Assembly: GCF_002251795.1 (NCBI RefSeq)
Contig: NZ_NOXU01000031.1
Span: forward strand, 62,001-126,000
Origin: Niveispirillum lacus
GTDB lineage: Bacteria > Pseudomonadota > Alphaproteobacteria > Azospirillales > Azospirillaceae
DNA length: 64,000 nucleotides
Reading direction: 5' to 3'
Shown piece after piece: positions 35,657-45,260 of the stretch; the stretch's first letter is position 1, and each line of letters starts with the position of its first letter. The position numbers were made by a program, and so were the translations under genes. Below the pieces are notes generated by a model. It ran no database searches, had not been told where the DNA came from, and saw only the letters and a program-made list of their open reading frames with translations.

Positions 35657-37189
35657 TTACAACCCAAGGGCCTTTTCCCGACGGCGCTGGACTGAAGAAG
35701 GGATCTTCATACCTTCACGATACTTCGCTACTGTCCGACGCGCAATGTCGATCCCATCGGCCCGCAGGATTTCGACAATTTTATCATCGGATAGGGTGTC
35801 GTCGGCTTTCTCGGCATCAATCAGGGCCTTGATCCGATAGCGCACGGCCTCTGCGGAGTGGGCGGCCTGTCCGTCGGCCCCCTGAATGGCGGAGGTGAAG
35901 AAATATTTCAGTTCGAACACGCCGCGCGGGCTCGACAGGAACTTGTTGGTTGTCACGCGGCTGACGGTGCTTTCATGCATCCCAATGGCTTCGGCGATAT
36001 CGCGCAAAATCAAGGGCTTCATGAATTGCAGCCCATGCAGGAAAAAGGCGTCCTGCTGGCGGACGATTTCGGTCGCCACCTTCAGGATGGTATTGGCCCG
36101 CTGATGCAGGCTTTTGACCAGCCAACTCGCCGATTGAAACTGTTCAGCGATATATTCCTTGTCGGCCTTACTGCGCGCACCGCTGGTCACGCGGCTGTGG
36201 TAGCGCTGGTTGACCAGGACGCGGGGCAGTGTCTCGGTATTCAGTTCCACGATCCAGCCGCCACCGGGGCTGGCCCGCATCAGGATATCGGGCACCACCG
36301 TCTGGACCGGTTCAAAATCAAAGGCCAGCGCCGGCTTGGGGTTCAGCGCCTTGATTTCCGCTACCATGTCCGAGAGGTCTTCAGCATCGCAGCCGCAGAC
36401 CTTCAATAATTGCTGGAGATTACGTGCTGCCAGCAGGGGCAGATTGTTCAGTAAAGCCTGCATGCAGGGGTCCAGGCGATTTTTTTCGCGCAACTGGTTG
36501 CCCAGACATTCAGCCAGCGTGCGGGCGAAAATACCGGCAGGATCAAAGCGCTGCATGCGCAGCAGCACATTTTCCACCTGTTCCAGCCCGCAGCCCAGTT
36601 GAGCCGCCACTTCCTCCAGCTTGCCTGTGAAGTAACCGGCCTCATCCAGATGATCCAGCAGGGCATAGGCCACCATGCGATCCAACCGGTCGCCCAGATC
36701 CATCGTGATCTGTTCTTCCAGATGGTCACGCAGCTTCGGCCGCTCGGTCAGTGTCGCCTCAAACCCCTCGCCCTCCTCATCGAAGCCACCAGAACGGGAT
36801 GACCATTCACCAAACTGCTCACCCGATCCCAGACCGGCGCTGTCCATATCGGCAGCGGAACTGTTGGTGTAGACATTCTCGTAATCGGTATCGAGCGGGG
36901 CGTCGTTCGACCCGGCCATCCGGTCGGAGGTGGCCAGCTCCACCGTGTCGGCCACACGGGCCTCATTCACCGGGGCGGGGGCCTCCTCCCGGTCCACGCC
37001 CGTTGTGGGCGCATCATTCCAGCCTGTCCCATCGTCCCGTTCCAGCAGCGGGTTCCGCTCCAGTTCTGAATCCACATATTCGGCCAATTCCAGATTGGAG
37101 AGCTGCAGCAGCTTGATCGCCTGCTGAAGCTGCGGCGTCATCACCAGCGACTGTGACTGGCGTATATCGAGCCGTTGCTGGAGCGCCAT
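35657..37189 (-). CDS. rpoN: RNA polymerase sigma-54 factor
   Basis: Sigma-54 of 510 residues. Region I is QSLVMTPQLQQAIKLLQLSN near 13-32, followed by an acidic region II and the core-binding and HTH regions. The DNA-contact RpoN box ARRTVAKYREGMKIPSS lies near the C-terminus. It starts the rpoN-hpf-ptsN operon. lptB, normally directly upstream, is 4.4 kb away because the bufferin operon lies between. The 236 bases upstream show no gene. Confidence 0.98.
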   Translation of the reverse strand: MALQQRLDIRQSQSLVMTPQLQQAIKLLQLSNLELAEYVDSELERNPLLERDDGTGWNDAPTTGVDREEAPAPVNEARVADTVELATSDRMAGSNDAPLDTDYENVYTNSSAADMDSAGLGSGEQFGEWSSRSGGFDEEGEGFEATLTERPKLRDHLEEQITMDLGDRLDRMVAYALLDHLDEAGYFTGKLEEVAAQLGCGLEQVENVLLRMQRFDPAGIFARTLAECLGNQLREKNRLDPCMQALLNNLPLLAARNLQQLLKVCGCDAEDLSDMVAEIKALNPKPALAFDFEPVQTVVPDILMRASPGGGWIVELNTETLPRVLVNQRYHSRVTSGARSKADKEYIAEQFQSASWLVKSLHQRANTILKVATEIVRQQDAFFLHGLQFMKPLILRDIAEAIGMHESTVSRVTTNKFLSSPRGVFELKYFFTSAIQGADGQAAHSAEAVRYRIKALIDAEKADDTLSDDKIVEILRADGIDIARRTVAKYREGMKIPSSVQRRREKALGL

Positions 37190-37425
37190 TCTTGCGAAAA
37201 GACCTGTTCTGACGGGCGGATAGCTGCCGATTGCAACGATGCCGCGGCACAGGCCCGACCATGGTCACCCCCGGAAAGCCGCAACCGTTACCCATAACGG
37301 CCTCTCGGCTGGCATACCCCTGTCGGCTGTTCCCCAGCGATGCCCAAGGTAAGGTGCAAGAGGCATGCCCGCAACAGTTAGGCCCGGTGGCGCTGAAAAT
37401 TATTCCATTGCTTTCTGCGGCGGCT

Positions 37426-38079
37426 TTACTTTTGCACCCCATGCCAGCGGAACAGCACCCGTCCCAACGGCGCCAGCACGGCTCCGACGCTCAGCACCGC
37501 CAGGATCTGGATGGCGATCAACAATGGCGCATCAAGATCATCATGTATCAGCCGTTCGCCGAACATGGCCATACCGCCACCGGCGATCAACAGCAGCGCC
37601 ATCATGCGCACCGGCGCGACGGGCGCGGCGCGGCGCATGTCAGCCGCCAGGAAAAGGGCTGACCCAATGCTGATAACCGGAAAACAATAGGGGCAGAAGA
37701 GATGGACCATATCCGGTATGGCCTGCGTTTCCAGGGTGGGGCGCGCGCTTTCCCACGCGACCAGCAGCCAGAAAGCAGCGGCCGGCAGCCAGATCAGCCT
37801 TTCCCAGCCGCGCCGCCCAGGCACGGAAAAGGAAATGGCGGCAAAGCCGGCCAACAACGCCGTGCCCAGCGCCAGCGCCTGTTTGGCGAGCCAGACAGGG
37901 TTGCTAATAACAAGACCAAGATCCGGCCGGATGCCATGCCAACTGGTCGCCAGCGCCATCAGCCCCAGGGATGCCGCGCCCCAAAGCAGCAACCGCAGCA
38001 CCGGCGGGGGCAGGCGGCGGGCCGCACTCGCCTCACTGCTCAACCGCTCGATCAGGTGGCTTGTATCAGCCATGGTCAT
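37426..38079 (-). CDS. NrsF-like anti-sigma factor (DUF1109)
   Basis: A 217-residue membrane protein with about six hydrophobic helices and a short cytosolic N-terminus (DTSHLIERLSSEASAARRL), matching DUF1109/NrsF, the anti-sigma partner of SigF-type ECF factors in Caulobacter. Its only two Cys form a CxxC (HLFCPYC, Cys129 and Cys132), a possible thiol or metal sensor; the Cys pair in Caulobacter NrsF is spaced farther apart as I recall. The start overlaps the sigma gene end; ATG 38073 is an alternative. Confidence 0.88.
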   Translation of the reverse strand: MTMADTSHLIERLSSEASAARRLPPPVLRLLLWGAASLGLMALATSWHGIRPDLGLVISNPVWLAKQALALGTALLAGFAAISFSVPGRRGWERLIWLPAAAFWLLVAWESARPTLETQAIPDMVHLFCPYCFPVISIGSALFLAADMRRAAPVAPVRMMALLLIAGGGMAMFGERLIHDDLDAPLLIAIQILAVLSVGAVLAPLGRVLFRWHGVQK

Positions 38080-38626
38080 CTTCCTTCCGTAACAATTGCC
38101 GTAACCCCACGATCCCGCGGTGGACGGCGACTTTCAGCGCGCCGATGCTGACGCCGCTGGCGTCTGATGCTTCTTTCAAACTCAGCCCTTGCACCTTCAA
38201 CATCTCGATGGCTGTCCGCTGGCGTTCCGGCAGACGTGACAGGAGCGGCCCCAACGCGACCTGAGGGGCCGGCTCCGCCTCCGGTTGGGCAACCGTATCG
38301 GCGATGCCATCATCGAAATCCGTCTCCACCGCCCGCCGCCGATAGGTGCGGCGCAGGGCGTCGGACAGTCGGTTGCGGGCGATGGCGCCCAGCCACGGAC
38401 CGACGGGGCGCCCCGGCTGAAAGGTCGGCAGCGCCTGATGAACGGCCAGCAGCGTGTCCTGGACAAAATCTTCCAGATCGGCTGGCCGTGCCAGTTTTCC
38501 CCGGCCCACCGCCCGGATCAGCGGCACCACGGCACGCAGGAACGCCGCATAGGATGCACGATTCCCGTCCTGCGCCGCTGTCAGCAGCAGGCCAAGCTCC
38601 GCTTCATCCGTCCCTCGCACGCTCAC
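38066..38626 (-). CDS. ECF RNA polymerase sigma factor, SigF-like
   Basis: A 186-residue ECF sigma. Region 2 is DLEDFVQDTLLAVHQALPTF followed by WLGAIARNRLSDALRR; region 4 is LPERQRTAIEMLKVQGLSLK with GVSIGALKVAVHRGI. It overlaps the anti-sigma gene by 14 bases and is the sixth gene of the bufferin operon, so it probably activates its own operon from the promoter at 41412-41440. Confidence 0.92.
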   Translation of the reverse strand: MSVRGTDEAELGLLLTAAQDGNRASYAAFLRAVVPLIRAVGRGKLARPADLEDFVQDTLLAVHQALPTFQPGRPVGPWLGAIARNRLSDALRRTYRRRAVETDFDDGIADTVAQPEAEPAPQVALGPLLSRLPERQRTAIEMLKVQGLSLKEASDASGVSIGALKVAVHRGIVGLRQLLRKEDDHG

Positions 38627-38657
38627 GCCGTCTCCGTCGATAGCCGAGGCTGCCCCG

Positions 38658-38915
38658 TCATTTTGGCGGCTTCGACGGCTTGGTCACGCCGTTCTGTTCC
38701 AGAAAAGCCTGGAACTTTGCGGGGTCCAGGAAATAGAGGTCCAGGCATTCATTAAATTTGTCCTGATCCTTGATGGATTTGCAGAGGCGTTCGGCCTCTT
38801 CGTTTGCCGCCTGTTTCTGAGCCTTTTCAGCGGCGCTCATGGATGGTGTTGTGGCCTGTGCCAGGGACGGCAGGAACAGGATCGAAAGCAGGAGCGGAAA
38901 GCCAAAGCGTCGCAT
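38658..38915 (-). CDS. Small exported protein with two cysteines
   Basis: An 85-residue protein: signal peptide MRRFGFPLLLSILFLPSLAQA, then a helical, charged mature part of about 64 residues with two Cys (Cys45 in ERLCKSIKD, Cys57 in FNECLDLY) and a short basic tail. It sits three bases after doxX and before the sigma gene, so it belongs to the operon. I do not recognise a family. A periplasmic helical hairpin closed by a disulfide, or a metal-binding partner of the bufferin, would fit; both are inference. Confidence 0.65.
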   Translation of the reverse strand: MRRFGFPLLLSILFLPSLAQATTPSMSAAEKAQKQAANEEAERLCKSIKDQDKFNECLDLYFLDPAKFQAFLEQNGVTKPSKPPK

Positions 38916-38918
38916 GGG

Positions 38919-39431
38919 TCACCTCGTGGTTTCGGGCGAGAGCTGACTGCCGCGTGTGCGCAGCACCCGCCAGCCGGCATCTATTGACCAGGTGCCAGGG
39001 CCCAGCACAAACAGCACGCCCGCGACCAGAATCCATGGAATCTGTTCCGCTGCAATGGCGATCCCATTTTCCACCCCCTGAGGTGTCTGGCCGATGACCA
39101 GGAACAGGGTTGCGGCCATCACCCCCAGACCGGCAGCCCCTACGCGTCCGGCCAGACCCAGGATCAGCAGCAGGCTCAACACTATTTCCGCGCCGGTGGT
39201 CAGCGGCGCCGCGATGGCGGCCGGCAGCAGGGGAACCGGATGGATGTCGGTAAACAGGAATGCCTGCGCATCCCAGGTGAAGACCCGGTGCCAGCCCGCG
39301 GTGGCAAAGGGCCAGGCCAGCCACAGCCGCGCCAGCAGCAGCCCGGCGCCAAGGACCTGCCGCGCCAACGGGCGCAGCCGCAGCGTCGGTCCGGGATCAG
39401 TCAGGAACAGGGCAAGGCGGCGGATCAGCAT
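38919..39431 (-). CDS. DoxX family membrane protein
   Basis: A 170-residue four-helix membrane protein of the DoxX/DoxD type (LLLARLWLAWPFATAGWHRV, AEIVLSLLLILGLAGRVGAA). DoxX genes often accompany DUF692-DUF2063 pairs, for example in the Caulobacter gold-induced (gig) operon. Its ATG overlaps the end of the DUF2063 gene. Probable quinone- or redox-linked role in the envelope; exact function unknown. Confidence 0.88.
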   Translation of the reverse strand: MLIRRLALFLTDPGPTLRLRPLARQVLGAGLLLARLWLAWPFATAGWHRVFTWDAQAFLFTDIHPVPLLPAAIAAPLTTGAEIVLSLLLILGLAGRVGAAGLGVMAATLFLVIGQTPQGVENGIAIAAEQIPWILVAGVLFVLGPGTWSIDAGWRVLRTRGSQLSPETTR

Positions 39432-40183
39432 GGCGTCAAATCGTCATCTGTGGCGGAGATCAGCCCCTGGGTGAACAGCAACGCCAGGACCGGGGCCAAG
39501 CTGCTGCCATCCACCAAGTGGTTCGCGGCGGTCAGCAGGTCGTTACCCGCCGCCAGGGCGGCGATGACGTTGCCGACATCGGCTGGCAGCAAGGTCGCCG
39601 CCACTAATAAGTCGGGCCCCCGCCAGACCAAGGCGGTGGCGTCCGGCCCCTGCAGGGGCAAGATCGGTTCGACCAGCCTGATATCAGGCCGGCCCACCTG
39701 CCAATCCACCAGAACCGATCGCGACCCTGTCAGCCCTGTTGCCGACGGCACCGGACGTAGCCGCAGCCCAGCCACGGTATCGGGCGGAAGGCTGGCCAGC
39801 GCGGCCATGGTCACGACCCCTGTATCGCCGGCGAAGTAAGCCTGGTGCGCCGCCCAGTCCAATTGCGCCAGCAGCGGCAGGGGAAAGGGCATGTCCGTCC
39901 CAAACCCATGCCCGTAGGCCGACAGCATCGGCGGGCCAGGTGGATGGTGGCGCAGATGCCTTCGGGCCGCATCCGCAAAAGCCTGGTCTCCCAGACCGGC
40001 CTTGATGCTGGGATAGGCTTCGGCCAAGACCTGCGTCAGCGCGGCGGTAACCGTTGCAGTGTGGATAAAAAGAGCCTTGTCCACCGCGATGCTGGCTGGC
40101 GCCAGATGCGGCAGGGCCCCGGCATAACCGGCCGGGTCGCCATAACAGGCCGACACCATCGCCCGCTGCAGGTCGATCAGCAT
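39425..40183 (-). CDS. DUF2063 protein, MNIO partner (BufC-like)
   Basis: A 252-residue protein with the N-terminal DUF2063 putative DNA-binding-like fold (LQRAMVSACYGDPAGYAG, YPSIKAGLGDQAFADAAR). In bufferin and methanobactin-type systems this family presents the precursor peptide to the MNIO enzyme. It overlaps BufB by 7 bases at its start and DoxX by 7 bases at its end, so production is stoichiometrically linked. Confidence 0.9.
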   Translation of the reverse strand: MLIDLQRAMVSACYGDPAGYAGALPHLAPASIAVDKALFIHTATVTAALTQVLAEAYPSIKAGLGDQAFADAARRHLRHHPPGPPMLSAYGHGFGTDMPFPLPLLAQLDWAAHQAYFAGDTGVVTMAALASLPPDTVAGLRLRPVPSATGLTGSRSVLVDWQVGRPDIRLVEPILPLQGPDATALVWRGPDLLVAATLLPADVGNVIAALAAGNDLLTAANHLVDGSSLAPVLALLFTQGLISATDDDLTPC

Positions 40184-41028
40184 GCCGCAGCCTCCCGAAC
40201 AGCATCAGCCTTGGTTGCCTGAGACAGCAACACCGCCAATGGTGGCAGGGCCGTATCCCATTCCACCAGCGTGGGACGCGGGCCGAATCGGCGCAGCGCA
40301 CTCTCATACAGGGCCCAGACCGGGTCCGGTACAGCGCTGCCATGATCGTCGATCAGCAGACTGCCGCCATCGACATCCATCCGGGCATGTCCGGCCAGAT
40401 GGATTTCTTGGACGGCATCGCCAGGAAAGTGGGTCAGAAGGCGTGCGGCATCCTGCCCCCGGTTGCTGGCACTGATATAAAGATTGTTCAGGTCCAGCAG
40501 CAGGCCACAGCCGGTGCGAACCGCCAGGGCTGCCAGAAACTCCCCCTCATCCATCTGATCCGCTGTGAAGCGCACATAAAGCGACGGGTTTTCCACCAAC
40601 AGGCGGCGACCCAACGCATCCTGGGCACGCGCAACATTCGCCGCCACGATCTCCAGCGTCTGACCCGTCAAGGGCAGGGGCAGAAGATCGGGCACATGCG
40701 TGCCGGCCAGACCGGTCCAGGCCAGATGATCAGAGACCAAGCAGGGCTGGAACCGGTCATAGAGGGCGCGCAACCGGGCCAGATGGGCCGTGTCCACCCC
40801 GTCGGCCGCCCCAAGAGAAAGGGCGACTGAATGAAAGGAGACCGGGTAATCCTGGCGCAGCTTCTCCAACTGCGCCAGACGCGGACCACCGGCGACCAGG
40901 TAATTCTCCGCATGCACCTCCAGCCACCCGGCCTTGCCGGCCCCGGTCAGAAATTCTGACACATGGGCATGGCGCAGGCCGACACCGGCCTTGACCAGAT
41001 CAGGGAAGCGGGGGGCAGGGGTGTGCAT
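40177..41028 (-). CDS. DUF692 multinuclear non-heme iron oxidase (BufB-like)
   Basis: A 283-residue TIM-barrel MNIO enzyme. Conserved metal-ligand segments are all visible: EVHAENY, FHSVALSLG, SDHLAW, LLVENPSLY, LLLDLNNLY, EIHLAGHARMD and DDHGSAV with LVEWD near the end. MNIOs use two or three irons to turn Cys of RiPP precursors into oxazolone/thiooxazole-type groups. Here it is paired with a DUF2282 precursor 28 bases upstream, the bufferin type. Confidence 0.93.
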   Translation of the reverse strand: MHTPAPRFPDLVKAGVGLRHAHVSEFLTGAGKAGWLEVHAENYLVAGGPRLAQLEKLRQDYPVSFHSVALSLGAADGVDTAHLARLRALYDRFQPCLVSDHLAWTGLAGTHVPDLLPLPLTGQTLEIVAANVARAQDALGRRLLVENPSLYVRFTADQMDEGEFLAALAVRTGCGLLLDLNNLYISASNRGQDAARLLTHFPGDAVQEIHLAGHARMDVDGGSLLIDDHGSAVPDPVWALYESALRRFGPRPTLVEWDTALPPLAVLLSQATKADAVREAAAC

Positions 41029-41056
41029 GGGAAGACCCCGTCACAGAACCGCGATC

Positions 41057-41356
41057 TTACTTCTTGGCCTTAGCGGGATTGGTGCCTTCATAGGCCATCT
41101 CGGCCCCGCCAGCAGCCATGCAGGCTTCCTTCGTCATGGCCTTGAAATCCTGACCGCTGTAATCGACCTTGGATTGGGTGGCGCAGGAATGACCGGCGGC
41201 CTTGTTGGCGCAGTCATTCTCACCGGCCTTGGAGACGCCATAGCACTTCACCTTTTCACCCTCAGCAGCATGGGCGGGGGCAGCGATGGCGGCCAGCGAC
41301 AACGCGCCGGCGAAAGCGGCGCCGAGGGTCAGGGCGGTGATGCGGGTGCTGGTCAT
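41057..41356 (-). CDS. DUF2282 bufferin-type RiPP precursor (BufA1-like)
   Basis: A 99-residue exported precursor. The signal peptide MTSTRITALTLGAAFAGALS... ends in AAPAHA (cleavage about residue 30). The mature part has the four DUF2282 cysteines, Cys38 (VKCYG), Cys49 (NDCANK), Cys58 (HSCATQ) and Cys79 (EACMAAGG). In characterised bufferins the inner Cys are modified by the MNIO enzyme and the peptide sequesters copper in the periplasm. ATG 41356 gives the right signal length; a longer frame to 41395 is unlikely. Confidence 0.93.
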   Translation of the reverse strand: MTSTRITALTLGAAFAGALSLAAIAAPAHAAEGEKVKCYGVSKAGENDCANKAAGHSCATQSKVDYSGQDFKAMTKEACMAAGGAEMAYEGTNPAKAKK

Positions 41357-41411
41357 GGAACAGATCCTTCGGGCTTTGGGTGTATCGGCGCTCATCGGCG
41401 TCCGTACCCTG

Positions 41412-41440
41412 CTATTCGGTCTGTTCCAGAGAAGGTTACG
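41412..41440 (-). promoter_or_regulatory. SigF-like ECF promoter of the bufferin operon
   Basis: On the minus strand GTAACC (41439-41434) is followed after 15 bases by CGAAT (41418-41414), about 58 bases before the precursor ATG. This matches my memory of the Caulobacter SigF consensus (GTAACC, about 16 bases, CGAA). The operon encodes such a sigma factor, making autoregulation likely. Confidence 0.65.
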
Positions 41441-41449
41441 CGGCTTTTC

Positions 41450-41480
41450 AAAAAAATCTTTGGCCTCAGAAGATTTTTTT
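41450..41480. terminator. AT-rich hairpin separating lptB from the bufferin operon
   Basis: AAAAAAATCTT (41450-41460) pairs perfectly with AAGATTTTTTT (41470-41480) around a 9-base loop. The A and T tracts make it a bidirectional terminator, ending lptCAB transcripts just upstream of the ECF promoter. Confidence 0.8.
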
Positions 41481-41570: not shown

Positions 41571-42347
41571 TTACAGGCTGAACCGCTCACCCAGATAGAC
41601 CCGGCGCACATCCTTGTGGGCGACGATCTCCGACGGGGTGCCCTGCATCAACACAACGCCATCATGCAGAATGTAAGCGCGGTCAACGATATCCAGCGTT
41701 TCGCGCACATTATGGTCGGTGATCAGCACACCAATGCCGCGTTCGCGCAGGTGGCTGACCAACTCGCGGATTTCGTTCACCGCAATCGGGTCCACGCCCG
41801 CGAACGGCTCGTCCAGCAGGATGAAATGCGGCTGGCTGGCCAGCGCGCGGGCAATCTCGGCGCGGCGACGCTCACCACCCGACAGTGCGAGTGCCGGCGT
41901 GCGGCGCAAATGCGTGATGGAAAACTCCGCCAGCAACTCATCGAGCCGCTGTTCACGTATATCACGGTCTGGTTCAACCACCTCCAGCACGGCGCGGATA
42001 TTATTCTCCACACTCAGACCCCGGAAGATGCTGGCTTCCTGCGGCAGGTACCCGATGCCCAGCCGGGCACGGCGATACATGGGCAGGGCGGTGACTTCCA
42101 TCCCGTCCAGGGTGATGCTGCCATGGTCGGGCAGGATCAGGCCGGTGATGATGTAAAAGCAGGTGGTCTTGCCGGCACCGTTGGGACCCAGAAGCCCGAC
42201 CGCCTCGCCGCGGTTCACTGACAGTGAAATATCGCGCAGGACGGGCCGGCCCTTATAGGCCTTGCCGATGCGCGATGCCACAAGGCCCGTATTGTCGGTA
42301 ACCAGGCGCGGGCCGGTCGCTGACTTGTCCTGGGTCAACTGGCTCAT
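41571..42347 (-). CDS. lptB: LPS export ABC transporter ATP-binding protein
   Basis: ATPase (258 residues) powering lipopolysaccharide extraction with LptFG. Walker A LLGPNGAGKTT, Q-loop GYLPQEASIFRGLSVENNIR, signature LSGGERRRAEIARAL, Walker B FILLDEPFAGVDP and the LptB-type C-terminus are present. ATGA overlap with lptA. In related genomes rpoN follows directly; here it does not. Confidence 0.97.
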   Translation of the reverse strand: MSQLTQDKSATGPRLVTDNTGLVASRIGKAYKGRPVLRDISLSVNRGEAVGLLGPNGAGKTTCFYIITGLILPDHGSITLDGMEVTALPMYRRARLGIGYLPQEASIFRGLSVENNIRAVLEVVEPDRDIREQRLDELLAEFSITHLRRTPALALSGGERRRAEIARALASQPHFILLDEPFAGVDPIAVNEIRELVSHLRERGIGVLITDHNVRETLDIVDRAYILHDGVVLMQGTPSEIVAHKDVRRVYLGERFSL

Positions 42348-44910: not shown

Positions 44911-44995
44911 TGGTGCCCAGAAGAAGACTCGAACTTCCACACCTTGCGGTACAGGTACCTGAAACCTGCGCGTCTACCAATTCCGCCATCTGGGC
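44911..44995 (-). tRNA. tRNA-Leu(CAG), copy 1
   Basis: An 85-nt tRNA with encoded CCA. Acceptor GCCCAGA pairs with TCTGGGC, the D arm is GGCGGAATTGGTAGACGC, the anticodon stem is CAGGT/ACCTG with loop TTCAGGT (anticodon CAG at 44959-44961 on plus coordinates), a class-II variable arm follows and the T loop is TTCGAGT. It reads CUG codons, the main Leu codon of this GC-rich genome. Identical to the copy at 45176. Confidence 0.96.
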
Positions 44996-45175: not shown

Positions 45176-45260
45176 TGGTGCCCAGAAGAAGACTCGAACT
45201 TCCACACCTTGCGGTACAGGTACCTGAAACCTGCGCGTCTACCAATTCCGCCATCTGGGC
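45176..45260 (-). tRNA. tRNA-Leu(CAG), copy 2
   Basis: The same 85 nt as copy 1, 265 bases away, with encoded CCA and its own terminator. Tandem duplication of the tRNA and 3' hairpin, in which flanking sequence has diverged while the tRNA has not. Confidence 0.96.

Follow-up and report, generated by a model that had tools for sequence, protein, structure and literature searches.

Seven genes on the minus strand (41356-37426) lie between lptB and rpoN in a 64,000-nucleotide stretch of Niveispirillum lacus DNA (a Niveispirillum-type genome; the whole stretch is called the window), and the locus raises the question of what this gene row makes, what switches it on and how it came to separate two genes that are neighbours elsewhere in the family. 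The answer we consider likely is that the row forms a complete Buf1 bufferin operon, one with a built-in switch of the ECF16 (SigF-NrsF) type, where ECF stands for extracytoplasmic function, and that it buffers periplasmic copper. In order of transcription it encodes a DUF2282 precursor, an MNIO enzyme, a DUF2063 protein, a DoxX protein, an exported protein of 85 amino acids (aa), an ECF sigma factor and the anti-sigma factor NrsF. The features are given below in window coordinates.

41450..41456, minus strand: T-tract 10 nucleotides (nt) 5' of the -35 element, UP-like by eye, function presumed
41415..41439, minus strand: promoter of the SigF/ECF16 type, GTAACC-N15-CGAA (pattern search, conservation in the genus, Caulobacter consensus)
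41057..41356, minus strand: Buf1 precursor (DUF2282), 99 aa, with Cys38, Cys49, Cys58 and Cys79 (Pfam; signal peptide by eye)
40177..41028, minus strand: MNIO maturase, BufB type (Pfam and NCBIfam)
39425..40183, minus strand: DUF2063 partner protein, BufC type (Pfam)
38919..39431, minus strand: DoxX-family membrane protein (Pfam)
38658..38915, minus strand: exported helical protein of 85 aa with invariant C45 and C57, a clade-specific addition (homologue comparison, structure model)
38066..38626, minus strand: ECF sigma factor, taken as SigF/ECF16-like (Pfam; NrsF partner and promoter)
37426..38079, minus strand: NrsF (DUF1109) anti-sigma factor with C129-P-x-C132 and His179 (Pfam, alignment)
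41571..42347, minus strand: lptB, upstream (left) neighbour (family match)
35657..37189, minus strand: rpoN, downstream (right) neighbour (family match)

Family calls were made as bit scores against the curated Pfam cut-offs, with NCBIfam equivalog cut-offs given separately, and six of the seven proteins exceed their Pfam threshold: the precursor with 57.1 bits (cut-off 22.4), MNIO with 328.5 (25), DUF2063 with 47.6 (27.2), DoxX with 45.6 (23.6), the sigma factor with 52 for Sigma70_r2 (24) and 40.2 for r4_2 (25.7), and NrsF with 69.4 (26.8), PF06532 being covered over its full length. MNIO also passes the NCBIfam BufB model (363, cut-off 310). These matches bear out the proposal of a first-pass annotation, made from the sequence alone, that the genes form a bufferin-type operon with its own ECF sigma and anti-sigma factors. 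As in Buf1 clusters, the DUF2282 protein carries a signal peptide, recognized by eye, and four conserved cysteines (38, 49, 58 and 79 in the window numbering), which are kept in all eight precursors of the genus, and a BufB-type MNIO gene with its DUF2063 partner lies adjacent. According to the survey of these clusters (PMC12452194; this and the other published reports are cited from partial texts), the two central cysteines of Buf1 are modified and the outer two are joined in a disulfide. A search of the whole window genome found one MNIO gene and one DUF2282 gene.

The seven genes are tightly packed, with a gap of 28 nt between buf, the precursor gene, and MNIO, overlaps of 7 nt between MNIO and DUF2063 and again between DUF2063 and DoxX, gaps of 3 nt before and 31 nt after the 85-aa gene, and an overlap of 14 nt between sigma factor and NrsF, followed by 236 nt to rpoN. 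The first-pass annotation had described one transcription unit with tiny gaps or overlaps; all the genes it named, their order and their spacing were recovered, and from the spacing and overlaps we infer that they are read as one transcript. The precursor most likely starts at 41356 and not at 41395, because the -10 element ends at 41415, which would leave the latter start almost no leader, and because 41356 agrees with the precursor starts in seven relatives. The leader of the buf mRNA (41356-41410, minus strand) and its equivalents in genomes G068, G069 and G071 contain a possible 5'-proximal hairpin whose sequence differs between genomes; compared with shuffled sequences, folding was better in G068 (z -3.2) and G071 (z -2.5) and not clearly so in the window (z -0.8) and three others. 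Scans of the locus for terminators and sigma-70 promoters gave results not above chance.

The motif in front of the precursor, GTAACC-N15-CGAA, occurs once in the window, where 0.09 matches are expected. It stands 5' of the precursor in seven of seven genus loci, always with N15 while the spacer bases diverge, and also in an eighth genome with the full operon, G068. The Caulobacter SigF consensus is GTAACC-N16-CGAA (PMC3511200), and in Sinorhizobium the orthologous DUF692 operon is transcribed by RpoE7 from a promoter of the form GTAAC...CGAA, RpoE7 promoters having, by our own count, N15 and N16 spacings and an A as sixth base (PMC6180224). Two marks of ECF16/SigF-NrsF systems are present here, namely GTAACC-N15/16-CGAA before the target operon and an ECF sigma gene followed by a DUF1109 anti-sigma gene, and it is because of the NrsF partner and the promoter type that the sigma factor is taken as SigF/ECF16-like. 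By eye, each of the eight genus genomes compared has an A/T tract 9-11 nt 5' of GTAACC, amid differing surroundings, which is presumably an UP element.

Taken as a bufferin operon with its own switch, the locus would work as follows. Before the precursor leaves the cell interior through Sec, MNIO and its DUF2063 partner would turn its C49 and C58 into thiooxazoles, C38 and C79 would form a disulfide, and the mature peptide would buffer excess copper in the periplasm, a function assigned by homology. The membrane anti-sigma factor NrsF would keep the sigma factor bound until a metal that reacts with thiols, most likely Cu, acts at the C129-P-x-C132/His179 site of NrsF; once released, the sigma factor would fire the promoter before the precursor, so that buffer, maturase, sigma and anti-sigma factor rise together. 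Given that the gene row itself ends with the sigma and anti-sigma genes, the loop is predicted to amplify and also to shut itself off.

Caulobacter carries the Buf1 genes CC3254-CC3257 and sigF-nrsF (CC3253-CC3252), which are like the window in the four biosynthetic genes, the sigma and anti-sigma families and the promoter consensus. The first-pass annotation had these related genes answer metal stress. Cu was found to induce SigF and its regulon, to which these genes belong, under every condition examined, and a sigF mutant is Cu-sensitive (PMC8224329); the name gig, which it had given to the Caulobacter genes, is misplaced and belongs to an operon of Cupriavidus (and Legionella). The two differ in that Caulobacter has sigF-nrsF as a unit apart, read from a promoter of its own, while the window has seven genes in a row behind one promoter, in that the targets of Caulobacter SigF further include CC2905-2907 and an MsrPQ-like pair, and in the extra 85-aa gene and the C129/C132/H179 type of NrsF found in the window. 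Cupriavidus metallidurans gigPABT-rpoQ-rsqA has the same gene set and is induced by Cu and Au in that organism, according to the available text, with the sigma and anti-sigma genes divergent from gig, unlike in the window. In Sinorhizobium meliloti, with SMb20530-20527 and rpoE7-ecfR7, an ECF16 sigma factor likewise controls DUF692 and DUF2063 genes through GTAAC...CGAA promoters, which are separate there.

Among 60 NrsF loci of a class-wide sample, 19 had an MNIO gene in the stretch examined and three more a precursor alone. The sigma-NrsF pair was divergent from the bufferin genes in 15 of these 19 and mixed in two; in locus L165 the sigma factor came first on the same strand, and locus L201 (genome G150) had exactly the order of the window, buf-MNIO-DUF2063-DoxX-ECF-NrsF on one strand, with GTAACC-N16-CGAA 5' of buf, an NrsF of the upstream-Cys type and no 85-aa homologue in the locus. 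Several divergent loci carry a GTAAC-type motif between the two units. With 15 of 19 divergent and L201 in the same order, the single-operon layout is a minority form and not new. The coupling of sensor, regulator, precursor and enzyme in one operon, which the first-pass annotation had stressed, is thus present here, but its novelty was overstated, since bufferin genes tied to SigF/NrsF have been published for Caulobacter (PMC3511200, PMC8224329) and for Sinorhizobium RpoE7 (PMC6180224), and a survey found sigma factors and NrsF in Buf1 clusters (PMC12452194). The kind of operon is known; what is specific to this clade is the 85-aa protein and the CPxC/His179 form of NrsF.

Several observations weigh against a copper-responsive SigF-type operon. 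NrsF scores 20.8 against a cut-off of 300 for the NCBIfam model AntiSigF_NrsF, the precursor 36.4 against 60 for BufA2 and DoxX 35.7 against 80 for HvfX. No sigma-70-like promoter for basal sigma synthesis was found at the locus, where 0.8 were expected, and strict GTAACC-N15-17-CGAA is not enriched genome-wide (16 matches, all of which were inspected, and 47 for a reversed-pattern control). NrsF is without C179, so that the cysteine pair of ECF16/SigF-NrsF systems, C129/C131 with C179/C181, is incomplete here. In the published texts available, the orthologous Sinorhizobium system was not induced by H2O2, Cd or chromate (PMC6180224), and an RpoQ-dependent start of Cupriavidus gig was not demonstrated; both results count against a firm assignment of the inducing signal. 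A response to oxidants, namely hypochlorous acid (HOCl), H2O2 or singlet oxygen, in which copper would be secondary and the peptide or DoxX would protect thiols or methionines, is a less likely alternative. Of the related ECF16/NrsF pairs, that of Bradyrhizobium responds to H2O2 and singlet oxygen (PMC3420878) and that of Brucella to HOCl (PMC8315932), a sigF mutant of Caulobacter copes poorly with oxidative stress in stationary phase (a result cited in PMC8224329), and DoxX has been discussed as guarding against oxidative or sulphur stress (PMC12452194).

The reach of the sigma factor bears on the same choice. A stricter pattern, GTAACCTT-N13/14-CGAA, gave 15 matches in ten genus genomes, and six with the reversed control. 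Eight are the operon promoters, and four precede one and the same exported protein (in the window genome, G068, G070 and G073, four of the ten). The site before this second protein, GTAACCTT-N14-CGAA, has a spacer one base longer than the operon's and lies, in the window genome, 32 nt before a TTG start (locus L017, G000:C31:66422; relatives L242, L237 and L239). The protein, of ~240 aa, had no Pfam, NCBIfam or PDB match, and its C-terminal Phe suggests by eye an outer-membrane barrel. Judged from the conserved site, it is probably a second target of the operon's sigma factor. Because so similar a promoter is conserved before it in four genomes, the regulon probably extends beyond the operon to at least one further target, which the operon's sigma factor would drive. 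The view that the operon's own site is the sole promoter-placed match is overturned by this site, and "self-contained", the word used for the operon in the first-pass annotation, is too strong.

A further stricter match, found in the window genome alone, is placed 34 nt 5' of a DUF417 gene (locus L003, G000:C12:44821), a relative of the reactive-chlorine protein RclC, which is a point for the oxidant response although the reversed control has two matches; the gene product scores 78.7 bits for DUF417 (cut-off 27) and 62.6 bits for RclC, below that model's cut-off of 275. An Ohr-like gene, named by eye, lies near it. Together, the second regulon site and the DUF417 site slightly lower our confidence in the copper operon and slightly raise that in the oxidant response. 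The two remaining stricter matches were set aside, one (G073, contig C165) within a long reading frame on both strands and the other (G067, contig C285) amid many repeats where no gene is evident, as was a strict match at L012 that lies 13 nt before the start of a binding-protein gene, too close for a promoter of the SigF type.

The sensor itself departs from the published form. NrsF of the window has C129 and C132, in the motif FCPxCFP, and His179, and the same holds in nine of nine genus genomes with the gene. In OsrA of Bradyrhizobium, retention of the sigma factor depends on C129 and the response to H2O2 on C179 (PMC3420878), and Caulobacter NrsF has C131 and C181, in place of the C129/C132/His179 of the window protein. 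We compared 81 NrsF proteins, nine of this genus, five of other genera of the family, seven of named loci and 60 of the class-wide sample, for which 84 NrsF places were found in 75 of 372 genomes (60 were taken, two belong to this genus and 22 were left out); a gene listed both under a genome handle and as a named locus was counted once. The sample is not random and rows from one genus are not independent; the Caulobacter and Bradyrhizobium proteins stand outside the alignment, and correspondence with them was taken from position and spacing (C129 and H179 in the window protein).

The first Cys is kept in 81 of 81. A Cys occupies the 179 position in 30 proteins, two of which also have the upstream Cys, whereas 38 have His there together with a Cys 14-26 residues before the first. 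CPxC with His is found in nine, all from this genus. A fourth sensor pattern, CxxC with Glu, occurs in three class-sample proteins (L218, L219 and L223), one of them also with the upstream Cys, and the single protein left, L187, has His without any partner Cys. Since 39 of the 72 other proteins also have His at 179, the family as a whole is not defined by the C129/C179 pair. With C179 lost, a peroxide sensor like OsrA becomes less plausible, and soft metals or HOCl are left as signals; of these, HOCl would be favoured by the DUF417 site, should that site be real. We found no published report of a CPxC-type NrsF in the literature searched, as far as its available texts go. More speculatively, and in our estimate unlikely, the clade's NrsF may be a direct soft-metal sensor in which C129-P-x-C132 and His179 form a Cu(I)-type site replacing C129/C179, with the 85-aa protein as its periplasmic partner passing copper or electrons to NrsF or to bufferin; more widely, the position of the partner Cys, in three places around one fixed Cys, would mark sensor subtypes.

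The 85-aa protein had no match in Pfam or NCBIfam, and none of seven members searched gave a Pfam family beyond stray weak matches (best E 0.013); nor was there a PDB sequence match below E 0.38, a PDB fold match of its structure below E 2.6 or a plasmid match. Its gene lies in the operon of all eight genus genomes with the full operon and, in a ninth (G072), stands as a contig-edge fragment beside the sigma and NrsF genes. A profile search of 140 loci (80 named, 60 of the class sample) found it only in the six genus loci, and across 385 class genomes it was not found outside the genus except for a poor match in G193 (E 7e-4), which we rejected as a homologue, the aligned stretch having one of the two cysteines. 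In the family set of 82 genomes, which also served as the order-level search set, stand-alone homologues were found in six of the seven genomes of one other genus; the five loci examined, out of the six, had no bufferin gene within 13 kb and no GTAAC motif in 900 bases upstream. At three of these loci, read in detail, the gene lies between another gene and one that we take, by eye, to encode a TonB-dependent receptor; four of the six genomes have MNIO genes on the contig that carries it, at a distance of roughly 100 kb.

C45 and C57 are invariant across both genera. The ratio of nonsynonymous to synonymous rates (dN/dS) was ~0.05 to 0.21 in nine species pairs, with dN = 0 in the tenth (conserved 60 codons), and the predicted structure is made of three helices (28-46, 51-63 and 65-74), its core being modelled with confidence (mean predicted local distance difference test score, pLDDT, 71.9). 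These comparisons argue that it is a real, selected protein under purifying selection. It could be a second MNIO substrate, that is, a tandem precursor of a ribosomally synthesized and post-translationally modified peptide (RiPP): it is exported, has two invariant cysteines and is in the operon of nine genus genomes (one as the contig-edge fragment), and clusters with tandem precursors exist (PMC12452194). We regard this as quite improbable, however, given that the gene sits after DoxX and away from MNIO, that the five stand-alone loci examined are without bufferin gene or GTAAC motif in the ranges given, and that the structure model puts both cysteines in its confidently predicted helical core. 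No published report of the protein was found in the texts available from the literature searched.

As to its site, rpoN and lptB were each found in 82 of 82 family genomes and are neighbours on one strand in all 71 outside the genus, with a gap of ~775 nt in G055 (L113), the longest, and under ~200 nt in the rest; gaps were read by eye, the start being extrapolated where the RpoN match began inside the protein. Of the 11 genomes of the genus, three (the window genome, G069 and G074) have the operon between lptB and rpoN, and a fourth, G073, has it next to lptB, with a contig break before rpoN. In G071 and G075 the operon lies beside rpoN, away from lptB, preceded in G071 by what are presumably genes for ribosomal protein L17 (rplQ) and a glutathione S-transferase (GST), named by eye, and in G075 by the same GST end. 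The junction is intact in G068 and G070 (~290 nt), which have the operon with its promoter elsewhere, and in G072, where a different contig has the 3' part of the operon at its edge, probably the reason why the MNIO search was empty there. No MNIO, NrsF or 85-aa gene was found in G066 and G067. When three empty junctions were aligned with three filled ones, homology resumed no more than ~10 nt past the window nrsF stop, and rpoN kept its own leader. The first-pass annotation was right that the operon interrupts a usual lptB-rpoN adjacency: the genes are neighbours in the 71 other genomes, and three relatives have an empty junction with the operon, in one of them partly seen, elsewhere.

These positions also bear on whether the genes are read through from lptB, or serve rpoN, and so belong to envelope or nitrogen control. 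They share the strand of lptB and rpoN and no terminator was called between lptB and buf, but such a role is very improbable, as G068 and G070 have operon and promoter away from an intact lptB-rpoN junction, G072 has at least the 3' part on another contig, and a different gene pair replaces lptB before the operon in G071, with the same preceding gene end in G075. Across eight genomes, operon protein identities follow those of rpoN plus lptB (r = 0.92); the two trees share the G068-G070 and G069-G071-G075 groupings but arrange the window genome, G073 and G074 differently, with weak support. Because operon identity tracks that of rpoN and lptB, we conclude that the sequences point to vertical inheritance with relocation inside the genus. 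The lptB-rpoN junction is likely, though not proven, to be the original site.

The rpoN leader (37189-37420, minus strand) contains GGGCATG-N4-TTGCA, which resembles a -24/-12 promoter of the sigma-54 type. It is kept in six of six aligned junctions of the closest relatives and was not seen in G069 and G071; rpoN may regulate itself. Two tandem tRNA-Leu(cag) genes lie further along the window, at 44911-44995 and 45176-45260, 180 nt apart.

Beyond what the first-pass annotation contained, the locus has a SigF-type promoter, altered NrsF cysteines and an operon that has moved among relatives. The 85-aa protein may prove a new accessory of bufferin operons. Cu, Cr, Cd, H2O2 and HOCl have been named as signals of ECF16/NrsF pairs in different bacteria, and the NrsF proteins compared here form a natural series in which the second Cys stands at three places while the promoter type is the same, which makes sensing testable by residue swaps.

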